From: Bradymonas sediminis
GTDB taxonomy: Bacteria > Myxococcota_A > Bradymonadia > Bradymonadales > Bradymonadaceae
Direction of reading: 5' to 3'
Assembly: GCF_003258315.1 (NCBI RefSeq)
Contig: NZ_CP030032.1
Span: 2,519,804 to 2,583,803, forward strand
Length of the DNA: 64,000 nucleotides
Shown one piece after another: positions 822-40,090 of this stretch. Both the position numbers and the translations under genes were made by a program. Positions within the stretch are counted from its first letter, which is position 1, and each line of letters begins with the position of its first letter. The notes under the pieces are model-generated. The model ran no database searches. It had not been told where the DNA came from and saw only the letters and a program-made list of their open reading frames with translations.

Positions 822-1847
822 ATGAACTCACGCGAACGATTCTTAAAAGCCTGCCGCTGCGAACCTGTAGACCGTCCGCCGATCTGGGTGATGCGCCAGG
901 CTGGGCGACATCTACCCGAATATCGGGAGTTTCGCAAAAAACACACGTTCCACGAAGTCGTGAAGGCCCCCGAGCTCGCGCTGGAGGTCACCATGCAGCC
1001 GATTCGCCGCTATAAGATGGACGCGGCGATTATCTTCTCCGATATCCTGGTCATCCCCGAGGCGATGGGTCAGCAATACGGATTCCCCGAGGGCGGCGGC
1101 ATCGAGATGGACTTCGCCGTGCGCACCCAGGCCGACGTGGACCGGCTGAGCGTCGACGGCATCGAGTCGCGCCTGAGCTATATGAGCGAATCGCTTCGCC
1201 TGGTCAAAAAGGAGCTCAACGGTGAGCGCGCGCTGATCGGTTTTAGCGGCTCCCCCTGGACGTTGGCGACGTATATGGTCGAGGGCAAGAGCTCCAAAAC
1301 CTACACCCACGCCAAAAAGATGTTCTACGAAGACCGCGTCCTCTTTGACCGGCTGATGCGCAAAATCACCCAGGCCGTCGTGCGCTATGTGCGCCTGCAA
1401 ATCGCCGCCGGCGTCGACGCCATCCAGCTCTTCGACAGCTGGGGCGGCGTGCTCGCCCCGGACGCATTCACCCAGGCGTCGGCGTTTTGGATGAAGCGCG
1501 TGGTCGACTCCGTCGCCGGCCAGGTTCCCGTCATCATCTTCTCCAAGGATATGTCGCACCTGGGCGACATCCTCGCGACGACCGGGGCCAACGTCCTCGG
1601 GGTGAATTGGAACCGGCGCCTGTCGACGGTTAAAAATAGTCTCCCCAGCGGCATCGCCGTGCAGGGCAACCTCGACCCGACCGTGCTCAACACAAACCCG
1701 GAGGTCGTGGAGCGCGAGGCGCTGCGCATCCTCAAAGATATGCGCGGCCTGCCCGGGCATATCTTTAACCTCGGCCACGGCATACAGCCCGACGCATCCC
1801 CCGAGAACGTGGCGAAGCTGGTCGACACGGTCACGAATTTTAAGTAA
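822..1847 (+). CDS. hemE: Uroporphyrinogen decarboxylase
   Basis: Cytosolic enzyme that decarboxylates the four acetate side chains of uroporphyrinogen III to give coproporphyrinogen III. The family signature PPIWVMRQAGRHLPEYR lies at residues 19-35, with the two substrate-binding arginines R25 and R29; IIFSDILVIPEAMG (the catalytic aspartate region) follows near residue 70, and FNLGHGI near the C-terminus carries the conserved histidine. I start at the ATG at 822, which follows TGAGG by about six bases and gives 341 residues, the usual length; the longer frame from 759 adds an unmatched 21-residue leader. First gene of the haem cluster, 20 bp before hemY. Confidence 0.96.
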   Translation: MNSRERFLKACRCEPVDRPPIWVMRQAGRHLPEYREFRKKHTFHEVVKAPELALEVTMQPIRRYKMDAAIIFSDILVIPEAMGQQYGFPEGGGIEMDFAVRTQADVDRLSVDGIESRLSYMSESLRLVKKELNGERALIGFSGSPWTLATYMVEGKSSKTYTHAKKMFYEDRVLFDRLMRKITQAVVRYVRLQIAAGVDAIQLFDSWGGVLAPDAFTQASAFWMKRVVDSVAGQVPVIIFSKDMSHLGDILATTGANVLGVNWNRRLSTVKNSLPSGIAVQGNLDPTVLNTNPEVVEREALRILKDMRGLPGHIFNLGHGIQPDASPENVAKLVDTVTNFK

Positions 1848-1867
1848 ATCGAAGCATCGGCGAGCTC

Positions 1868-3337
1868 ATGGCGAAGGAAGTGAATCGGGGAAGCATCGCG
1901 GTATTAGGCGGCGGGATTACGGGTCTCACCGCCGCCTATCGACTCCAAAAAGCCGGCTTCGAGGTCGTCCTCTTCGAAGCCGGCCCGGCCCTCGGCGGCC
2001 AGATAAGCTCGGCGCGCCGAGACGGGTTTTTGCTCGAAGGCGGCCCGCATACGCTGCTGGAGCGCGGACGCCTGGCCGACCTCATCGCCGAGCTGGGACT
2101 CCAGGGGCGCGTCGTGGAGGCGAACCCCGCGGCGAAGAAACGCTTTGTCGTCCGCGACCACCTTCCACACGCCCTTCCCACGAGCCTCGGCGCGTTTCTC
2201 AACTCCCCAATCTTGTCGCCGCTGGCGAAACTTCGCCTGCTGGCCGAACCCTTCGTCGCCAAGGGCCCCGGCGAGCGCGACAACTCAGAATCACTGGCCG
2301 ACTTCATCACTCGACGGCTCGGCCCCGAGGTCTTGGAATTCGCCGTCGACCCGATGGTCGCGGGCACCTTCGCGGGCGACTCCACCAAGCTCTCGGCGCG
2401 CCATGCGTTCCCAAAACTCTTCGAGCTTGAGCAGACCCACGGATCACTGGTCGGCGCCGGGCTGGCCCGCGTCGCCAATCGCCTGCGATGCCTCTTAAAA
2501 CCAGGCCAATCGCGGGACGAAGCCACGCCCAAAAAAGCAACCCGGCTTATTAACTTCGACGCAGGCTCTCAGGTCCTCATCGACCGCCTTTCGGGCGAAA
2601 TAGGCAAGGCACCTCGCCTCAATTGTAAGGTCCGCACCCTTGAGAAAAAAGAGAACGGTCGCTGGCTGATACGCTTTGAGGAAAAAGACGCCGACGCGAA
2701 GATCAAAGACCGCCAAAAGACCGTCGACGCGGTCTTCTGCGCCCTTCCCGCGAACGCGCTGGCGGATATTTCGGTGCGGCTGCATAACGCCGACCCCGCG
2801 GCGCCCTTCGAGCCGCTTCGCGGCATCGAGTATGCCGCGGTTTCGGTGGTCTCGCTGGGCTTTCGCCGCGAGGATATCGAACACCCGCTCGACGGCTTTG
2901 GCATGCTCGTCCCGCGCCAGGAGCAACGCCATATCCTCGGCACCCTCTTTATGAGCACCCTCTTTGCGGGCCGCGCGCCCGACGGTGAGGTCTTACTGAC
3001 GACGTTCGTCGGCGGCGCGCGAAACCCCGAATACGCCCATTTGCCAAGCGACGAAATTTACGCACGCACGCTCGCCGACCTCGATGATTTGCTGGGCGTG
3101 CGCGGCGAGCCGACCCTGCGCGAGCACCGGTTCTGGGGGGAGGCGATTCCGCAATATAACGTCGGCTACGACGCGTTTGAGACCACGCTCAACACCATCG
3201 AAGCCACCCACGCCGGCCTGTTCGTCGGCGGCAGCTTCCGCGACGGCATCGCGGTCCCGGACCGCATCGGCGCCGGCTACGATATCGCCGAACGCATCGA
3301 AACCTATTTAGATAAAGCGACTCAAGCACCAAGCTAA
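1868..3337 (+). CDS. hemY: Protoporphyrinogen oxidase, HemY/PPOX type
   Basis: FAD enzyme that oxidises protoporphyrinogen IX (or coproporphyrinogen III in some bacteria) with oxygen. The dinucleotide-binding motif [13 protein letters not shown] is at residues 14-26, followed by the [12 protein letters not shown] loop that holds FAD; the C-terminus has [18 protein letters not shown], the usual amine-oxidase/PPOX closing motif. 489 residues is normal. It lies 20 bp after hemE and 28 bp before hemB, on the same strand, as expected of an operon. Oxygen-dependent HemY suggests an aerobic lifestyle. In databases the same family is also called hemG; it is not the flavodoxin-like HemG of E. coli. 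Whether it acts in the protoporphyrin or coproporphyrin branch cannot be decided from sequence alone, but myxobacterial relatives use protoporphyrin. Confidence 0.94.
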
Positions 3338-3365
3338 ACGCCTTAAAAAAAACAAGGACTTCCAG

Positions 3366-4358
3366 ATGTCGAAACCCGCTCTCAACGCACCGCTTATCCG
3401 CCGACCCCGCCGACTTCGCCGCGGCGAAAACCTGCGCGCCCTGGTGCGCGAGAACCATCTTCGGCGCGACGACCTGATCATGCCGATTTTCATCACGGCC
3501 GCCGACAATACCGCGCGCGAAATCGCGTCGATGCCCGGCATCTTCCAATACTCATTGGACCGGGTGGACGCCGAGCTCGAGACGCTTCTGGAGCGCGGCA
3601 TCACCCGCATCATGTTATTCGGCATCCCGGCGGCCAAAGACGCCGTGGGCTCGGACACCTGGCACGACCACGGCATCATTCAGCGCGCCATCGGCCATAT
3701 CAAAGCCAACTACCCGGAATTCTACGTCATTAGCGATGTCTGCTTCTGCGAATTCACCAGCCACGGCCACTGCGGCGTGGTCGACGACACCGGCGCCCTG
3801 CTCAACGACCCGACGCTCGAGAACCTTCAAAAACAAGCCATCTCGCACGCCCAGGCCGGCGCCGATATGCTCGCCCCGTCCGGCATGATCGACGGCATGA
3901 TCGGCGCGATGCGCGGCGCCCTGGACGCCCAGGATTTCGCGCACCTGCCGCTGATGAGCTACGCGGTCAAATACGCCTCCGCCTACTACGGCCCCTTCCG
4001 CGACGCGGTCGACTCCGCCCCCCAATTCGGCGACCGACGCGCCTACCAGATGGACCCGGCCAACGCCCGCGAAGCCATGGTCGAGGCCGCCCTCGACCTC
4101 GAAGAAGGCGCCGACATCCTGATGGTCAAACCCGCCCTGGCCTACCTCGACATCGTCCGCCAGGTGCGCGACCGCTTCGACGTGCCGGTCGCCGCCTATA
4201 ACGTGTCGGGCGAATACGCGATGGTCAAAGCGGCCGCCGAAAAAGGCTGGGTCGACGGCGATGCGGTCGCGCTGGAATCACTGCTGTCGATGAAGCGCGC
4301 CGGGGCCGATATTATTTTGACCTATTTTGCCCGGGATATCGCGTTGTTATTGCCGTGA
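3366..4358 (+). CDS. hemB: Delta-aminolevulinic acid dehydratase (porphobilinogen synthase)
   Basis: Condenses two 5-aminolevulinate molecules to porphobilinogen. 330 residues, normal length. [14 protein letters not shown] at residues 124-137 supplies three cysteines (C126, C128, C136), the zinc-ligand pattern of the zinc-dependent class; enzymes using magnesium replace these with aspartate and alanine. The two active-site lysines are in SYAVKYAS (K202) and LMVKPALAY (K255), and YNVSGEYAM follows. It closes the upstream block of the haem cluster; directly after its stop begins the palindromic-repeat/RAYT insertion that separates it from hemH by 2.2 kb. Confidence 0.97.
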
Positions 4359-34537: not shown

Positions 34538-35077
34538 TCAATCCAATTGAGTCGGGTCGTGCCCCAGCAGCTCGTCTGCCGTCATACCGGCCTCGTCACC
34601 CTCACCGGACGCCTTCAAGAACGCATCCGCCTCGCGCTCCACGCTCGGCATCGTGATCAGCCCGCGGAAGCGAATATGCACCGCTTCCACCGGATAGAGG
34701 CGCCAGTCAATATGAAAGCGCTCGTCGCGGTCCTGGCGGAAGAACTCGTAGAGTTGTAATTTTAGGAACTCAATGCCCAATTCCAAATAACGCGTCGCGT
34801 CCCAGGGGCCGCCGGCGGTCTGGTCGGCCGCCAAAATGCTGGCCTCCACGTCGAGCTGAAAGGACTCGTCCACCCGGCTCAGGCGAATGCGCGCCCAGAT
34901 ATATTCGTCGGAGTGCTCCGCCTCGATATCGAGCTTTTCGCCCGGCTTTAAGAACGCCGAGAAACGCTGGGTCAACGACTGGCGAATCAACTGGCGCGAG
35001 CGTCCGCCGAGCACCTCGGGTGCCGGCGCAACGTCGCTCGTTTCATCTGACTTCTTCGTCATCTTCTTCATTCCCAT
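34538..35077 (-). CDS. Hypothetical cytoplasmic protein
   Basis: 179 residues from the ATG at 35077; ATGs at 35071 and 35062 are possible, and the longer frame from 35140 is unlikely. The body alternates beta strands and helices: EHSDEYIWARIRLSRVDESF, LELGIEFLKLQLYEFFRQDR, DWRLYPVEAVHIRFRG. No signal peptide, membrane helix or known motif; the acidic C-terminus reads GHDPTQLD. Function unknown. Confidence 0.6.
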   Translation of the reverse strand: MGMKKMTKKSDETSDVAPAPEVLGGRSRQLIRQSLTQRFSAFLKPGEKLDIEAEHSDEYIWARIRLSRVDESFQLDVEASILAADQTAGGPWDATRYLELGIEFLKLQLYEFFRQDRDERFHIDWRLYPVEAVHIRFRGLITMPSVEREADAFLKASGEGDEAGMTADELLGHDPTQLD

Positions 35078-35217
35078 CTGAATAGCTGCGCGCCGTAAAT
35101 ATCGGCGGCAGTAAAATACCGGACGACGCTCAAGTTCCACGCCGCTTAACGTCTGTCAACGCTGCGGTGTTCCCGAAACTACGCACGTCGCCCTAACGCA
35201 TTCAAAACAAAGGATAA

Positions 35218-37383
35218 TTAGCCGGCGGTGCGAATCCACAAACCTTCGAAGGAATCGCCCTCCGGGAAGCCCTTCATGCGCGGATAGTCCGACGCAGGCG
35301 GCGCGTTCTCGACGCTGCTTATCTTTCGGTTCGCGCGGTTGGCCGCGCGTCGCACCAATTTGGTGAGGCTGTCGCTCGGGCGTTTCTCATTGCGGCACAC
35401 CAGGAGCACCCCGCCCTTGGCCAGGCGCTTAAAGCACTCGACGAGCAGGTCTTCGTAGTCTTTCTTGACCGACCAGAAACCCGAACTCCCCGCCGCGGCG
35501 GTGGGCGGGTCGACGATGATGCCGTCGAATTGCTCGTCGCGGCGTTTGGCCTCGCCGCTCAAATACGCGCGGGCGTCGTCGGCCACCGAATAATTGAGCT
35601 TGCCGGAGATATGATTGAGCCGAAGGTTATCTTCCAACCACTCCAGGTAGCGCTTGGAGAGGTCGACGCTGACGACCTCGCAGCCAAGAGCTGTCAGCGC
35701 CACGCTGAACGCGCCGGTGTGGCAGAAGAGGTTGAGCCAGCGCTGGCCGGATTTGGCGATCTTTCGCATCTTGCGTCGATTCTCGCGCTGGTCAGCGAAG
35801 AACCCGACGTCGATGCCTTCCCAGGGCTCGCACCAATATTTCAGGCCGTCCTCCAGACCCACCACGCGCTCGCCTTCGCGGGCGTAGTTGGCGCCGCGCT
35901 CGATGACGCGCGCCAGGCGGTCGCCCGGGCCAGGCGTCTTCTCGGCGCGGATATCCTCGAAATGCTCCACCTCGAGGATCATGATCTCGGGGTTAAAGTC
36001 GAGGATATTCTGATAGACGCGGTCCCTGAATCCGAGCGCCGTCGCGCCGGTTAAGGTCGCCCGAAGCAGCGGTCCGACGCGGTCGATCTGCAGCCCGGGG
36101 AACCCGTCGGCTTCGGCGTGGACCAGGCGGAAAAGATCGGTCTCGGCGGTGTCGCGGGTCAATCGACTGCGCGCGGCCAGGGCCTCGTCGACGCGCAGGT
36201 CGATCTCTTCTTCGAAGTTCTTGGCCGCGCCGCTGTCGTGGCTCCACAGGCGCGCGGCGAGCTGGCCGGGGCCTTCGACCAGCGCCCAGGGGCCCGGGCG
36301 CCCACGGGTATCCATCAGGTGAACGATAGTACCAGGGTCGATCGTATCGCGCCGGCCGGTGTCGCGGTCTTCGAGCACCCAGGGGTGCCCTTTGCGCGAC
36401 AGGATTTCGAGGCTGCGGTCGGAGACCTGCAACTTCGCGATGCGCTCGGTGCGCGTGTCTTTGGGTCGCTTGGCGCGATCGGCCGCGGCGGCCTCGTCCT
36501 CTTCGACCTCGGGCTCGTCTTCGATCCAGACGACCGGGTCCTCGGGCCACCATTTTGCGCCGGCGTTCCAACTATGCGCCAAATCATGGCCGGTCGCGCC
36601 TTCCTCAACGCCCTCACCGCCCATATAAAAGAACGCGGCGGCCCTCAGTCGCAGCCCACCCTCGACCATAAACCCACCGCGCCGGGCATCGCCGAGCACC
36701 GGCATATCGTTGGCAGCAAGCAGGTCGAGCAGCCACTCGACCGGGTCGGGGACCTGCTCAAACTCACCGTTTTGGGGCATCGGCGTGAGCTGCAATTCGG
36801 CGAGCCCGTTGCGGATCGTCGTGGCGCTATAATCCACCGGGATCTGATGCGCCCCGACCAGCCGGCCCTGCGGCAGCGCCGGCGCGGGGACGAGCACCAC
36901 CCAGGTGATCATCAGCGCCCCGCTTCCCCAGGTCTTTAGCAGCGTGTCGCTGGCCTTATCCTCAAGCCCGAAGAGCCAGGGTCCACCGCCCTCGGCCGGC
37001 ATCTGCCACACCGGTGAGAAGCCGTCGCGATTGACCCCCAGGGAGTCGGCCAAAAAGAGAATGGGGTTCATCGGATCATCGCGGTCCAGCACCCCGGGCA
37101 TGCCCACGGGCTTGTCCACGACGATCCAATCGTCGCCGCGCGCCAGGCCTGCGGCGCTCGGGATGCCGCTTGGCTCCTCGCCCGGGCCGACCTCGGCGCG
37201 CACCCGCGCGTCGCGGTCCACGACCTTGTCGGGCTTGCGCGTGATCAACTCCTCGACGCGCACCTTTCCCTGCTCAAAAGCCTGCGCGATCTGAGCGTCG
37301 GTGGCGTCGGGCCACGCGCGGTGCAGCAGCGCGGCGATGGTTTTGGGTTCGGCTTCGGCGGGGATGCGAAATTTCAATTCCAT
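35218..37383 (-). CDS. Fusion: degenerate pseudouridine synthase domain + RlmI-type rRNA methyltransferase
   Basis: 721 residues, nearly twice the normal RlmI length. The N-terminus (1-75) is S4/RluA-like. The next part (about 85-300) aligns with RluA-type pseudouridine synthases (WIVVDKPVGMPGVLDRDD) but the catalytic HRLDxxTSG is replaced by WQMPAEGGG, so the essential aspartate is missing. From about 315 a PUA domain starts (LQVSDRSLEILSRKGHPWVL), then the class I methyltransferase: VGFFADQRENRRKM, WLNLFCHTGAFSVAL and GIIVDPPTAA. RlmI methylates C5 of 23S rRNA cytosine 1962 in E. coli. I infer an RNA-binding role for the dead N-terminal half. It is 12 bases after nth on the same strand. Confidence 0.88.
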   Translation of the reverse strand: MELKFRIPAEAEPKTIAALLHRAWPDATDAQIAQAFEQGKVRVEELITRKPDKVVDRDARVRAEVGPGEEPSGIPSAAGLARGDDWIVVDKPVGMPGVLDRDDPMNPILFLADSLGVNRDGFSPVWQMPAEGGGPWLFGLEDKASDTLLKTWGSGALMITWVVLVPAPALPQGRLVGAHQIPVDYSATTIRNGLAELQLTPMPQNGEFEQVPDPVEWLLDLLAANDMPVLGDARRGGFMVEGGLRLRAAAFFYMGGEGVEEGATGHDLAHSWNAGAKWWPEDPVVWIEDEPEVEEDEAAAADRAKRPKDTRTERIAKLQVSDRSLEILSRKGHPWVLEDRDTGRRDTIDPGTIVHLMDTRGRPGPWALVEGPGQLAARLWSHDSGAAKNFEEEIDLRVDEALAARSRLTRDTAETDLFRLVHAEADGFPGLQIDRVGPLLRATLTGATALGFRDRVYQNILDFNPEIMILEVEHFEDIRAEKTPGPGDRLARVIERGANYAREGERVVGLEDGLKYWCEPWEGIDVGFFADQRENRRKMRKIAKSGQRWLNLFCHTGAFSVALTALGCEVVSVDLSKRYLEWLEDNLRLNHISGKLNYSVADDARAYLSGEAKRRDEQFDGIIVDPPTAAAGSSGFWSVKKDYEDLLVECFKRLAKGGVLLVCRNEKRPSDSLTKLVRRAANRANRKISSVENAPPASDYPRMKGFPEGDSFEGLWIRTAG

Positions 37384-37395
37384 AAGGCTTCCAAT

Positions 37396-38025
37396 TTAGT
37401 CCGCGTCGGACGCGGCCCATTTGCAGATCGGGCAGGTTTCGGCTTCGTGCCCACGCGCGGGGCAATATTCACGGCCGAAATAAATGATTTGAAGGTGACG
37501 GCGATTCCAGGTCTCTTTGGGGAAGACGGCGCAGAGGTCCTTCTCGACTTGGTTTACACTTTTACTGGTCGTAAGTCCCCAGCGTTTCGCGAGTCGGTGA
37601 ATATGGGTGTCGACCGGAAACGACGGCACCCCGTACATCTGGGCCATCACGACCAGGGCGGTCTTTCGCCCAACGCCGGGCAACTTCATAAGCCCCGAGA
37701 GCGTGTCGGGGACCACGCCATCCCACTTCTCCACGAGCAACTCCGAGGCCGCCTTGATGCGTTTTGCCTTGGTTGGGGCGAGCCCGCAACTCTTAATCTG
37801 CTCGAGGATCTCCTCTTCCGATAGTTTCGCCATATCGTGCGGGTTATCCGCAAGCGCGAAGAGACCGGGCGTCACCATATTGACGCGCTTGTCGGTGCAT
37901 TGGGCCGACAATAAGACCGCGATCGTCAGCGTGAACGCGTCGGTATGATCGAGGGGGATGGGAGGCTCGGGGTAGAGCTCATCGAGGATTTCACCAATTT
38001 TATCTGCTTTATCTTGGATATTCAT
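37396..38025 (-). CDS. nth: Endonuclease III
   Basis: Base-excision repair glycosylase/AP lyase for oxidised pyrimidines. 209 residues from the ATG at 38025, with AAGG seven bases upstream; longer frames are low quality. The helix-hairpin-helix lysine is in LPGVGRKTA (K121) and the catalytic aspartate in VDTHIHRL (D139), exactly where E. coli has K120 and D138. The C-terminal cluster loop is unusual: C188, C198 and C201 are present but spacing is 9-2 and the fourth cysteine is absent (KWAASDAD follows), so the [4Fe-4S] cluster may be altered or lost. Confidence 0.93.
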   Translation of the reverse strand: MNIQDKADKIGEILDELYPEPPIPLDHTDAFTLTIAVLLSAQCTDKRVNMVTPGLFALADNPHDMAKLSEEEILEQIKSCGLAPTKAKRIKAASELLVEKWDGVVPDTLSGLMKLPGVGRKTALVVMAQMYGVPSFPVDTHIHRLAKRWGLTTSKSVNQVEKDLCAVFPKETWNRRHLQIIYFGREYCPARGHEAETCPICKWAASDAD

Positions 38026-38272
38026 GGGCGCCCTTCTAGTCCGTGTCGCCTCAGAGCTCAACCCACCAACGCGAAGCGATGAAATATCGGCGCCTGTTCC
38101 GTGGTTTTGTTGCCCGTCCGACCGCGCGATGCCGCCGCCCACCGTAGAGCCGCTAATTTTCGTGACAACCCGCCCCATTGGCCTACAATGGCACGGAGCA
38201 GCGTCCTCAACTCATTTATCGAAATCAACGTCTATCGAAATCAACGCCTGATAAACGTCTGCCTGCGTATCT

Positions 38273-40090
38273 ATGCCCATTAATACGACCCGCAAAAATA
38301 TCCCCTATACCGTCGATTATCTGCTCGGTTTGCTCTCCGACGCCAAGCTCTTGAGCCCCGACCAGGTTCAGCAGGTGCGCGCCCAGCACGCGAGCGTGCG
38401 CACCCGAATCATGCGCGAGCGTGTGGCGCGCGAGGGGACGAAAAAGGCGGCGCGCACGCGCGTGGGCCCGGCCGAGATTATCGCGGAGTTTCGCTTTTTG
38501 TCGCCCACCGGCGACCCGGTGGACCAGGACGCGATCGCGCGCCTGGTGGCCGCCGATGCCGGCATTCCCTTCGAGAAGCCGGACCCGATCGAGATCGACA
38601 TGAAGTTGGTGGCGACCACGGTCAGCCAGCCATTTGCGCGCCACCACTCGTGCATCCCGCTGCGCCTGGAGAACGGCAAGATCGTCTTCGCCCTGGAGAA
38701 CCCCTACGATATCGAGTTGGTCCGCCAGCTCACCGAGGTCGCCGACCAGCCGATCAAGATCGTGCTGAGCTCCAAAAAAGACATCGCCAAGCTCATCTCG
38801 GAGGTCTACGGGCTCAGCTCTTCGATCACCGCCGCCGAGCAAGAGGCGAGCAGCGGGCTGGACATCGGCAACCTCGAGCAATTGGTTCGCCTCAAGACCA
38901 CCGGCGACATCGAGCCAACCGACCGCCCGATCATCAACGCGGTCGAGTACCTGCTCAATTACGCCTTCGACCAGCGCGCGAGCGACATCCATATTGAGCC
39001 CAAGCGCGAGCACACAATGGTGCGACTGCGCATCGATGGGGTGCTTCATAATATCTACCAATTCCCGATGGCCATCCACCGCGCGTTCACCAGCCGCATC
39101 AAGATGCTGGCGCGCATGGATATCAGCGAGCGGCGCCGGCCCCAGGACGGGCGCATTAAGACCCAGCGCGACCAGCATGAGATCGAACTTCGTGTCTCGA
39201 GCATGCCCGTGGCTTTTGGCGAAAAGCTGGTCATCCGCGTCTTTGACCCGCAGTCGACGATTAAAGATCTCAGCGCAGTGGGTATGAGCCCGCAGGAGGT
39301 CGAGCAATGGCGAAAATTCATCCACCGCCCGCACGGGATGATCCTGGTCACCGGCCCCACAGGCAGCGGCAAGACGACCACGCTTTATTCGACCCTCAAG
39401 GAGTTGGCCGGATCGGATGTCAATATCACCACGGTCGAAGACCCCATCGAGATGGTCCACGAGGAGTTCAACCAGGTGCTGGTGCAGCGGCGCATCGACA
39501 TCACCTTCGCCTCGGCGCTGCGCACGATCTTGCGCCAGGACCCGGACATCGTGATGATCGGTGAGATTCGCGACGCCGAGACCGCCCAGATGGCCGCCCA
39601 GGCGGCGCTGACCGGCCACCTGGTGCTCAGCACCCTGCATACCAACGACACCGCCTCGACCATCACGCGCCTCATCGACCTTGGCATTGAGCCGTTTTTG
39701 CTCTCCTCGGTGCTCGTGGGCATCATGGCCCAGCGCCTGGTGCGCAGCATCTGCCCGGACTGCAAAACGGAGACAACGCTGACCGCCGAGCAGGTCGAGA
39801 TGCTCGACATCAAATTGCCGCCGCGCTCGGAGCGCGCGCTTCCGGCCTATTACGGGCAAGGGTGCAGCAATTGCCGGGGCACCGGCTATTATGGGCGCAC
39901 CGGGATCTTCGAGATGCTCACAGTCGACTCGGCCATCGGCCGGCTCATAACTCGACAGGCCGACGCGCCTGAGATACGAAGGGCAGCGCGCGCTAATGGC
40001 ATGATTCCGTTGCAGGAAGGCGCGATTCGCAAACTCGCCGGTGGATTGACCACCTTCGAGGAAGTCATGACCATCTGCTCGGAATCCTGA
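38273..40090 (+). CDS. GspE/PilB-type secretion or pilus assembly ATPase
   Basis: 605 residues. N-terminal GspE/PilB N1 domain (to about 170), then the hexameric ATPase: ASDIHIEPK, Walker A GPTGSGKTTT (about 361-370), Asp box TVEDPIE, Walker B IVMIGEIRDAETA, His box LSTLHTND, and the zinc tetracysteine CPDC (about 497) with CSNC (about 531) before GTGYYGRTGIFEM. All catalytic parts are intact. No other T2SS or pilus genes lie next to it, so the system is elsewhere; from sequence alone GspE and PilB cannot be separated with certainty. A DUF1499 protein follows by nine bases. Confidence 0.92.
   Translation: MPINTTRKNIPYTVDYLLGLLSDAKLLSPDQVQQVRAQHASVRTRIMRERVAREGTKKAARTRVGPAEIIAEFRFLSPTGDPVDQDAIARLVAADAGIPFEKPDPIEIDMKLVATTVSQPFARHHSCIPLRLENGKIVFALENPYDIELVRQLTEVADQPIKIVLSSKKDIAKLISEVYGLSSSITAAEQEASSGLDIGNLEQLVRLKTTGDIEPTDRPIINAVEYLLNYAFDQRASDIHIEPKREHTMVRLRIDGVLHNIYQFPMAIHRAFTSRIKMLARMDISERRRPQDGRIKTQRDQHEIELRVSSMPVAFGEKLVIRVFDPQSTIKDLSAVGMSPQEVEQWRKFIHRPHGMILVTGPTGSGKTTTLYSTLKELAGSDVNITTVEDPIEMVHEEFNQVLVQRRIDITFASALRTILRQDPDIVMIGEIRDAETAQMAAQAALTGHLVLSTLHTNDTASTITRLIDLGIEPFLLSSVLVGIMAQRLVRSICPDCKTETTLTAEQVEMLDIKLPPRSERALPAYYGQGCSNCRGTGYYGRTGIFEMLTVDSAIGRLITRQADAPEIRRAARANGMIPLQEGAIRKLAGGLTTFEEVMTICSES

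Follow-up and report, generated by a model that had tools for sequence, protein, structure and literature searches.

rRNA modification enzymes may be retained for the reactions they catalyse or because they sit on the ribosome while it matures, a question that is still open. A gene of Bradymonas sediminis poses it directly: what can a pseudouridine synthase domain be doing once it has lost its active site and remains joined to a methyltransferase? The gene lies in the window, a stretch of 64,000 nucleotides (contig NZ_CP030032.1, positions 2,519,804 to 2,583,803), and encodes a 721-residue protein in which an S4 domain and an RluA-fold half are followed by a PUA domain and a COG1092-type methyltransferase. 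Its features are as follows, numbered along the window.

35218..37383, minus strand: whole fusion gene, 721 aa, stop included, ATG start, single open frame; full-length relatives exist
37186..37383, minus strand: S4-like domain, residues 1-66 (RluD profile match over residues 12-99; Hsp15 1dm9 in Foldseek)
36529..37167, minus strand: RluA-fold pseudouridine-synthase-like domain, catalytically dead, about residues 73-285 (AF2 with Foldseek and VIA)
36982..37008, minus strand: WQMPAEGGG, residues 126-134, replacing HRLDxxTSG, with the catalytic Asp changed to Pro129 (family alignment)
36238..36441, minus strand: PUA-like domain, residues 315-382 (PF17785; VIA match to RlmI 3c0k)
35221..35883, minus strand: SAM-dependent methyltransferase domain, residues 501-721 (PF10672, E 4.1e-17; VIA Z 38.3 to RlmI 3c0k)
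35707..35733, minus strand: SAM-binding motif NLFCHTGAF, residues 551-559 (clade motif alignment)
35494..35511, minus strand: motif IV, DPPTAA, residues 625-630 (clade motif alignment)
35380..35406, minus strand: motif VI, LLVCRNEKR, residues 660-668, with Asn665 aligned to the SCS cysteine of RlmI-type enzymes (alignments)

An endonuclease III-like gene (nth, 37396-38178) lies upstream in the same orientation, 12 bases away, with a T2SSE/MshEN ATPase gene (38273-40090) beyond it; downstream, 34538-35140 encodes a 200-aa protein without a Pfam match. An operon role with nth was dropped, as the adjacency occurs only in the source genome and is absent from the 1.5 kb flanks of the relatives.

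A synthase fold without its catalytic residues

The sequence of the N-terminal half gives little away. PF00849 finds no match in the protein up to E 10, hence none above its gathering score (Pfam), TIGR00005 matches weakly (E 0.017, residues 13-96; NCBIfam), and a profile search of this half reaches RluD at E 0.0045; the motif WIVVDKPVGMP occupies residues 86-96. Structure prediction, one of the checks named in a preliminary description of the locus, is more telling. Residues 1-300 were modelled with AF2 from 19 family sequences, giving a pLDDT of 89.7 and a pTM of 0.88. For this model the top Foldseek match is RluD (2ist, E 7.6e-13), the S4 protein Hsp15 (1dm9) also appearing among the Foldseek rows at probability 0.99, and the top VIA match is RluA (2i82, Z 15.3, 3.1 Å over 189 residues). 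Judged from the model, the RluA fold is real though near-invisible by sequence, the fold searches not being exclusive of other families.

RluA-type pseudouridine synthases rely on an Asp, a Tyr and an Arg for catalysis, and all three positions are altered here. A gap-free motif alignment with intact fused relatives (HRLDADVSG) places Pro129 on the catalytic Asp; in the family alignment a Trp stands at the Tyr position of KEY, and the arginine of TGRTHQLR is gone. The same changes run through f1, the family of the source genome, for which 19 N-terminal halves are readable among 21 genomes (G018 has no fusion, and the copy in G004 is broken by a contig end). These 19 rows give P16/E2/D1 at the Asp position, W17/F2 at the Tyr position, W18/M1 at the His of HRLD, and L18/R1 at the Arg position, where the lone Arg may be an alignment accident. 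One relative, L011 (G009, gene 1501-3552), has an Asp in the catalytic column (WTMDATMGG) together with neither the Tyr nor the Arg, possibly a chance return.

The preliminary description had proposed a dead synthase in which HRLDxxTSG gave way to WQMPAEGGG with loss of the catalytic aspartate, and both points are borne out. It had also raised a frameshift as a competing explanation; a frameshift or sequencing error is ruled out by the same replacement motif in the 19 f1 rows, since a loss fixed throughout the readable family cannot have arisen in that way. The open frame and conserved motifs likewise rule out a pseudogene, and family-wide and phylum-wide relatives a species-specific oddity.

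A new conserved motif, W-x-M-P-x3-G-G-P-W, now occupies the old active site: G134, P135 and W136, along with D113 and R119, do not vary across the 19 rows, and W126 hardly does. It could be argued that this half remains catalytic, its Asp having moved to another position such as D113 or its chemistry having changed: D113 and R119 are kept in 19/19 rows, and an Asp or Glu occupies the old catalytic column in three of the 19. However, the 721-residue protein and nearly all rows differ from active synthases at each of the Asp, Tyr and Arg positions, and D113 sits 16 residues ahead of the old site, which makes continued catalysis by this half very improbable.

The charge of the domain has shifted as well. 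In the f1 fusions (n=19) the mean net charge of the synthase-like stretch is -5.9 per 100 aa, whereas for standalone synthases of the same family it is +2.6 (n=20 of 33 fetched), a mean that omits the 13 stretches without the string RLD, one of which, L139, read -9. The Mann-Whitney p of 1.6e-7 for this difference is too small, as the rows share descent. Among intact fusions the net charge spans -7 to +4 per 157 aa, and the three active ones of families f16 and f30 are already slightly acidic (-4 to -7 per 157 aa), so that acidification is partly older than the loss of the synthase.

This acidity bears on the suggestion, made in the preliminary description, that substrate choice is guided by the dead domain. 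In this view the domain would be an RNA-recognition module by which the methyltransferase is positioned at its rRNA site, and several features would suit one: the S4 and RluA folds have an RNA-binding ancestry, the PUA and middle domains are retained, and the enzyme joined to the dead domain is a methyltransferase of rRNA type. However, a strongly acidic domain would argue against plain RNA binding, and the TGRTHQLR arginine is a Leu in 18/19 rows, with the loop replaced.

The methyltransferase half and its likely chemistry

The C-terminal half has the COG1092 fold with a PUA domain. Besides RlmI (3c0k, Z 38.3), residues 315-720 match RlmO (4dmg, Z 35.2) and mt-LAF24 (6yxx_E4, Z 28.2) in VIA, and PF17785 is recognized at residues 330-381 (E 0.0018, under its Pfam cut-off). 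The motifs DQRENR, NLFCHTGAF and DPPTAA are present, in keeping with the original view of this half as intact, and the methyltransferase looks able to bind SAM and to act, as predicted from these motifs.

Its earlier designation as RlmI-type survives for the fold and fails for the active site. In RlmI the SCS cysteine of motif VI is catalytic. That column holds a cysteine in 6/7 standalone paralogues and an Asn in 53/54 clade members with intact motifs, including Asn665 of the 721-residue protein. Pairwise alignment finds both DPPT and the motif VI Asn in RlmK of RlmKL (3v97/3v8v). The protein scores 120.8 of the 712 bits required by the NCBIfam RlmI equivalog and 106.3 of 466 bits with the RlmKL model, which includes RlmL. 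An m5C product is unlikely because an Asn, as in RlmK, fills the column of the RlmI cysteine, and the active-site residues point to base N-methylation of the RlmK-like m7G class.

Above cut-off, the source genome (G000) encodes just four proteins with PF00849 and a single COG1092 member, and relatives have up to eight and four. The sister family f2 seems to carry RlmKL-like proteins (G021:C530, G022:C173, G024:C87, G025:C164), read from UPF0020 and Methyltrans_SAM matches that share a frame; f1 showed none.

One fusion and repeated losses

The fusion is not unique to the source genome. An order-level protein search of 26 genomes (21 of f1 and five of f2) found it in 20 of the 21 f1 genomes and in none of the five f2 genomes, the sole f1 genome without it, G018, being 77% complete. 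The genuine fusion claimed at the outset, here a single frame of 721 residues, is thereby upheld. The search for the same architecture, likewise proposed earlier, extended to the phylum, where the methyltransferase clade occurs in 56 of 377 genomes, 15 of them in f1 (methyltransferase profile, E 1e-100 or better), a count that omits five lower-scoring f1 members without methyltransferase motifs. Beyond the phylum set, the one contig scan yielded one fusion (apparently on the contig of G007) and one ordinary RluA. The open-access literature contains no description that we could find of a pseudouridine synthase fused to an RlmI-type methyltransferase, in agreement with the preliminary description.

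Outside f1, 39 clade members were analysed. An intact HRLD synthase is present in seven (G312, G043, G267, G252, G129, G279 and G028), the N-terminal part is eroded in 26, and six have no synthase part in frame (G060, G099, G122, G250, G035 and G147), the latter two classes being read from the sequences by eye. Pfam finds PF00849 in 5/5 intact fusions tested (E 1e-20 to 4e-24) and in 0/5 eroded ones. Five of the clade methyltransferases without a synthase part in frame (L128-L132, from G060, G099, G035, G122 and G250) represent the end point of erosion.

In the synthase-domain tree, whose outgroup consists of 26 standalone RluA rows mostly from f1, the fused RluA domains form one clade (support 96/87), within which the dead f1 domains, the intact f16/f30 domains and two eroded rows group together (100/99). 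In the methyltransferase tree the dead G095 is sister to three intact f16/f30 members (100/97). A domain swap that restored an active synthase in G267, G312 and G043 is not favoured, as their RluA domains fall with the dead ones in the 100/99 group. A Dollo count on the methyltransferase tree gives two losses of the methyltransferase motifs and seven of the synthase motif, the latter number being approximate because several inner forks are weak. The tree omits L125 from G033, whose upstream part is unclear, and the partial L126 from G254, and the count additionally omits L019 and L123 (N-terminal parts cut off or absent). The trees thus suggest one fusion event, followed by about seven synthase losses.

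The two methyltransferase losses concern five f1 members (G002, G003, G016, G017 and G019), in which the motifs DQRxNR, NLFxHTGAF, DPPT and RN have disappeared in whole or in part. They are unlikely to be pseudogenes, as frames of 608-686 aa have stayed open across large divergence. The ratio of Rossmann to synthase identity averages 1.30 among intact members (minimum 0.96, 91 pairs) and 0.58 among these five (maximum 0.66, 10 pairs), and W126, P129 and G134-P135-W136 are retained in 5/5. Between G016 and G017, identity is 67% in the N-terminal half and 38% in the C-terminal half, and dN/dS is 0.14 versus 0.43, rough values because dS is near saturation. By these sequence comparisons, the dead synthase half is the better conserved half in the five members. 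Since it is conserved despite the loss of the methyltransferase motifs, it is probably selected for something beyond helping an active methyltransferase, and guiding the methyltransferase cannot be its sole use there.

An RNA-recognition module is therefore disfavoured from a second side, and the erosion or absence of the dead domain in other families with an intact methyltransferase also speaks against it; together with the acidity of the domain, this leaves the proposed guidance of substrate choice doubtful. The same erosion and loss, repeated across the phylum, could be taken to mean that the N-terminal half is a structural leftover, its fold kept by packing on the PUA-methyltransferase half, with no function of its own. 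However, a leftover would sit poorly with the new residues W126, P135, W136, D113 and R119, invariant or nearly so in f1, and with an N-terminal half that outconserves the methyltransferase half in the five members, and it is regarded as unlikely.

A candidate role in large-subunit assembly and known parallels

The explanation preferred here, to which we give roughly one chance in two, is that what was once a bifunctional enzyme of 23S rRNA modification now consists of a methyltransferase and a non-catalytic docking or scaffold module in large-subunit assembly. The bifunctional enzyme would have arisen when a PUA-COG1092 methyltransferase was joined, once, to an S4-RluA pseudouridine synthase. 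In the f1 ancestor all three catalytic positions of the synthase were then lost, and the dead domain held its fold, gained the W-x-M-P-x3-G-G-P-W motif and turned acidic. The 721-residue protein may retain an RlmK-like N-methylation (m7G class) of 23S rRNA, both target and chemistry being predicted, and the dead module may act as a docking or scaffold part while the large subunit is assembled. This role would not depend on chemistry, since the protein persists in two lineages whose methyltransferase motifs are gone; these relatives, with both active sites gone, suggest a chemistry-free job, perhaps helping to build ribosomes. Against an assembly role stands the fate of the N-terminal half in other families of the phylum, where it must be dispensable because it is eroded or has vanished. 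The 1.5 kb flanks of the relatives contain no linkage of the fusion gene to ribosome-biogenesis genes.

More tentatively, and with somewhat less confidence than an even chance, the family may record a once bifunctional enzyme in the course of becoming a purely non-catalytic ribosome assembly factor, losing one active site and then the other. The stages survive within one phylum: fusions with both motif sets intact, fusions with a dead synthase, fusions in which both halves are dead, and proteins from which the synthase half has been deleted. The family is a natural experiment on the question raised above, in which one architecture occurs among related bacteria in an active, a half-dead and a doubly dead form.

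Precedents point both ways. According to one study, single knock-outs of E. coli rRNA modification enzymes have minor effects and some inactive enzymes aid assembly: inactive RlmB(E198A) and RlmL(N309A) still stimulate 50S assembly, inactive RluC(D144A) gives no stimulation, and the RlmK domain has little effect (PMC11194073). Because RluC(D144A) fails to stimulate and the RlmK domain does little there, non-catalytic assembly roles do not appear to be general. For mt-LAF3 of T. brucei, another paper reports that catalysis is not required (PMC11469412).

Among known systems, the RluA/RluD synthases (S4 with PF00849) share the fold, the S4-then-synthase order and the KPxG and GD..xGG motifs with the 721-residue protein, which differs in its replaced Asp, Tyr and Arg, its acidity and its fusion to a methyltransferase. 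RlmI (YccW), the 23S rRNA m5C1962 methyltransferase, has the same PUA, middle and Rossmann domains; unlike it, the 721-residue protein has an Asn for the SCS cysteine, lies far under the NCBIfam cut-off and carries an N-terminal fusion. In T. brucei, mt-LAF3 and mt-LAF24 bring the same two folds together on one large-subunit intermediate (PDB 6yxx), mt-LAF3 matching the N-terminal model as the same synthase fold (VIA Z 12.7), but they are separate, mitochondrial proteins with no sign of common descent as a pair. The RlmK part of RlmKL (m7G2069) shares DPPT and the motif VI Asn in pairwise alignment, and RlmKL, as described in PMC11194073, is also a natural fusion of rRNA modification enzymes; the partner of RlmK, however, is RlmL, whereas that of the methyltransferase described here is a dead pseudouridine synthase.
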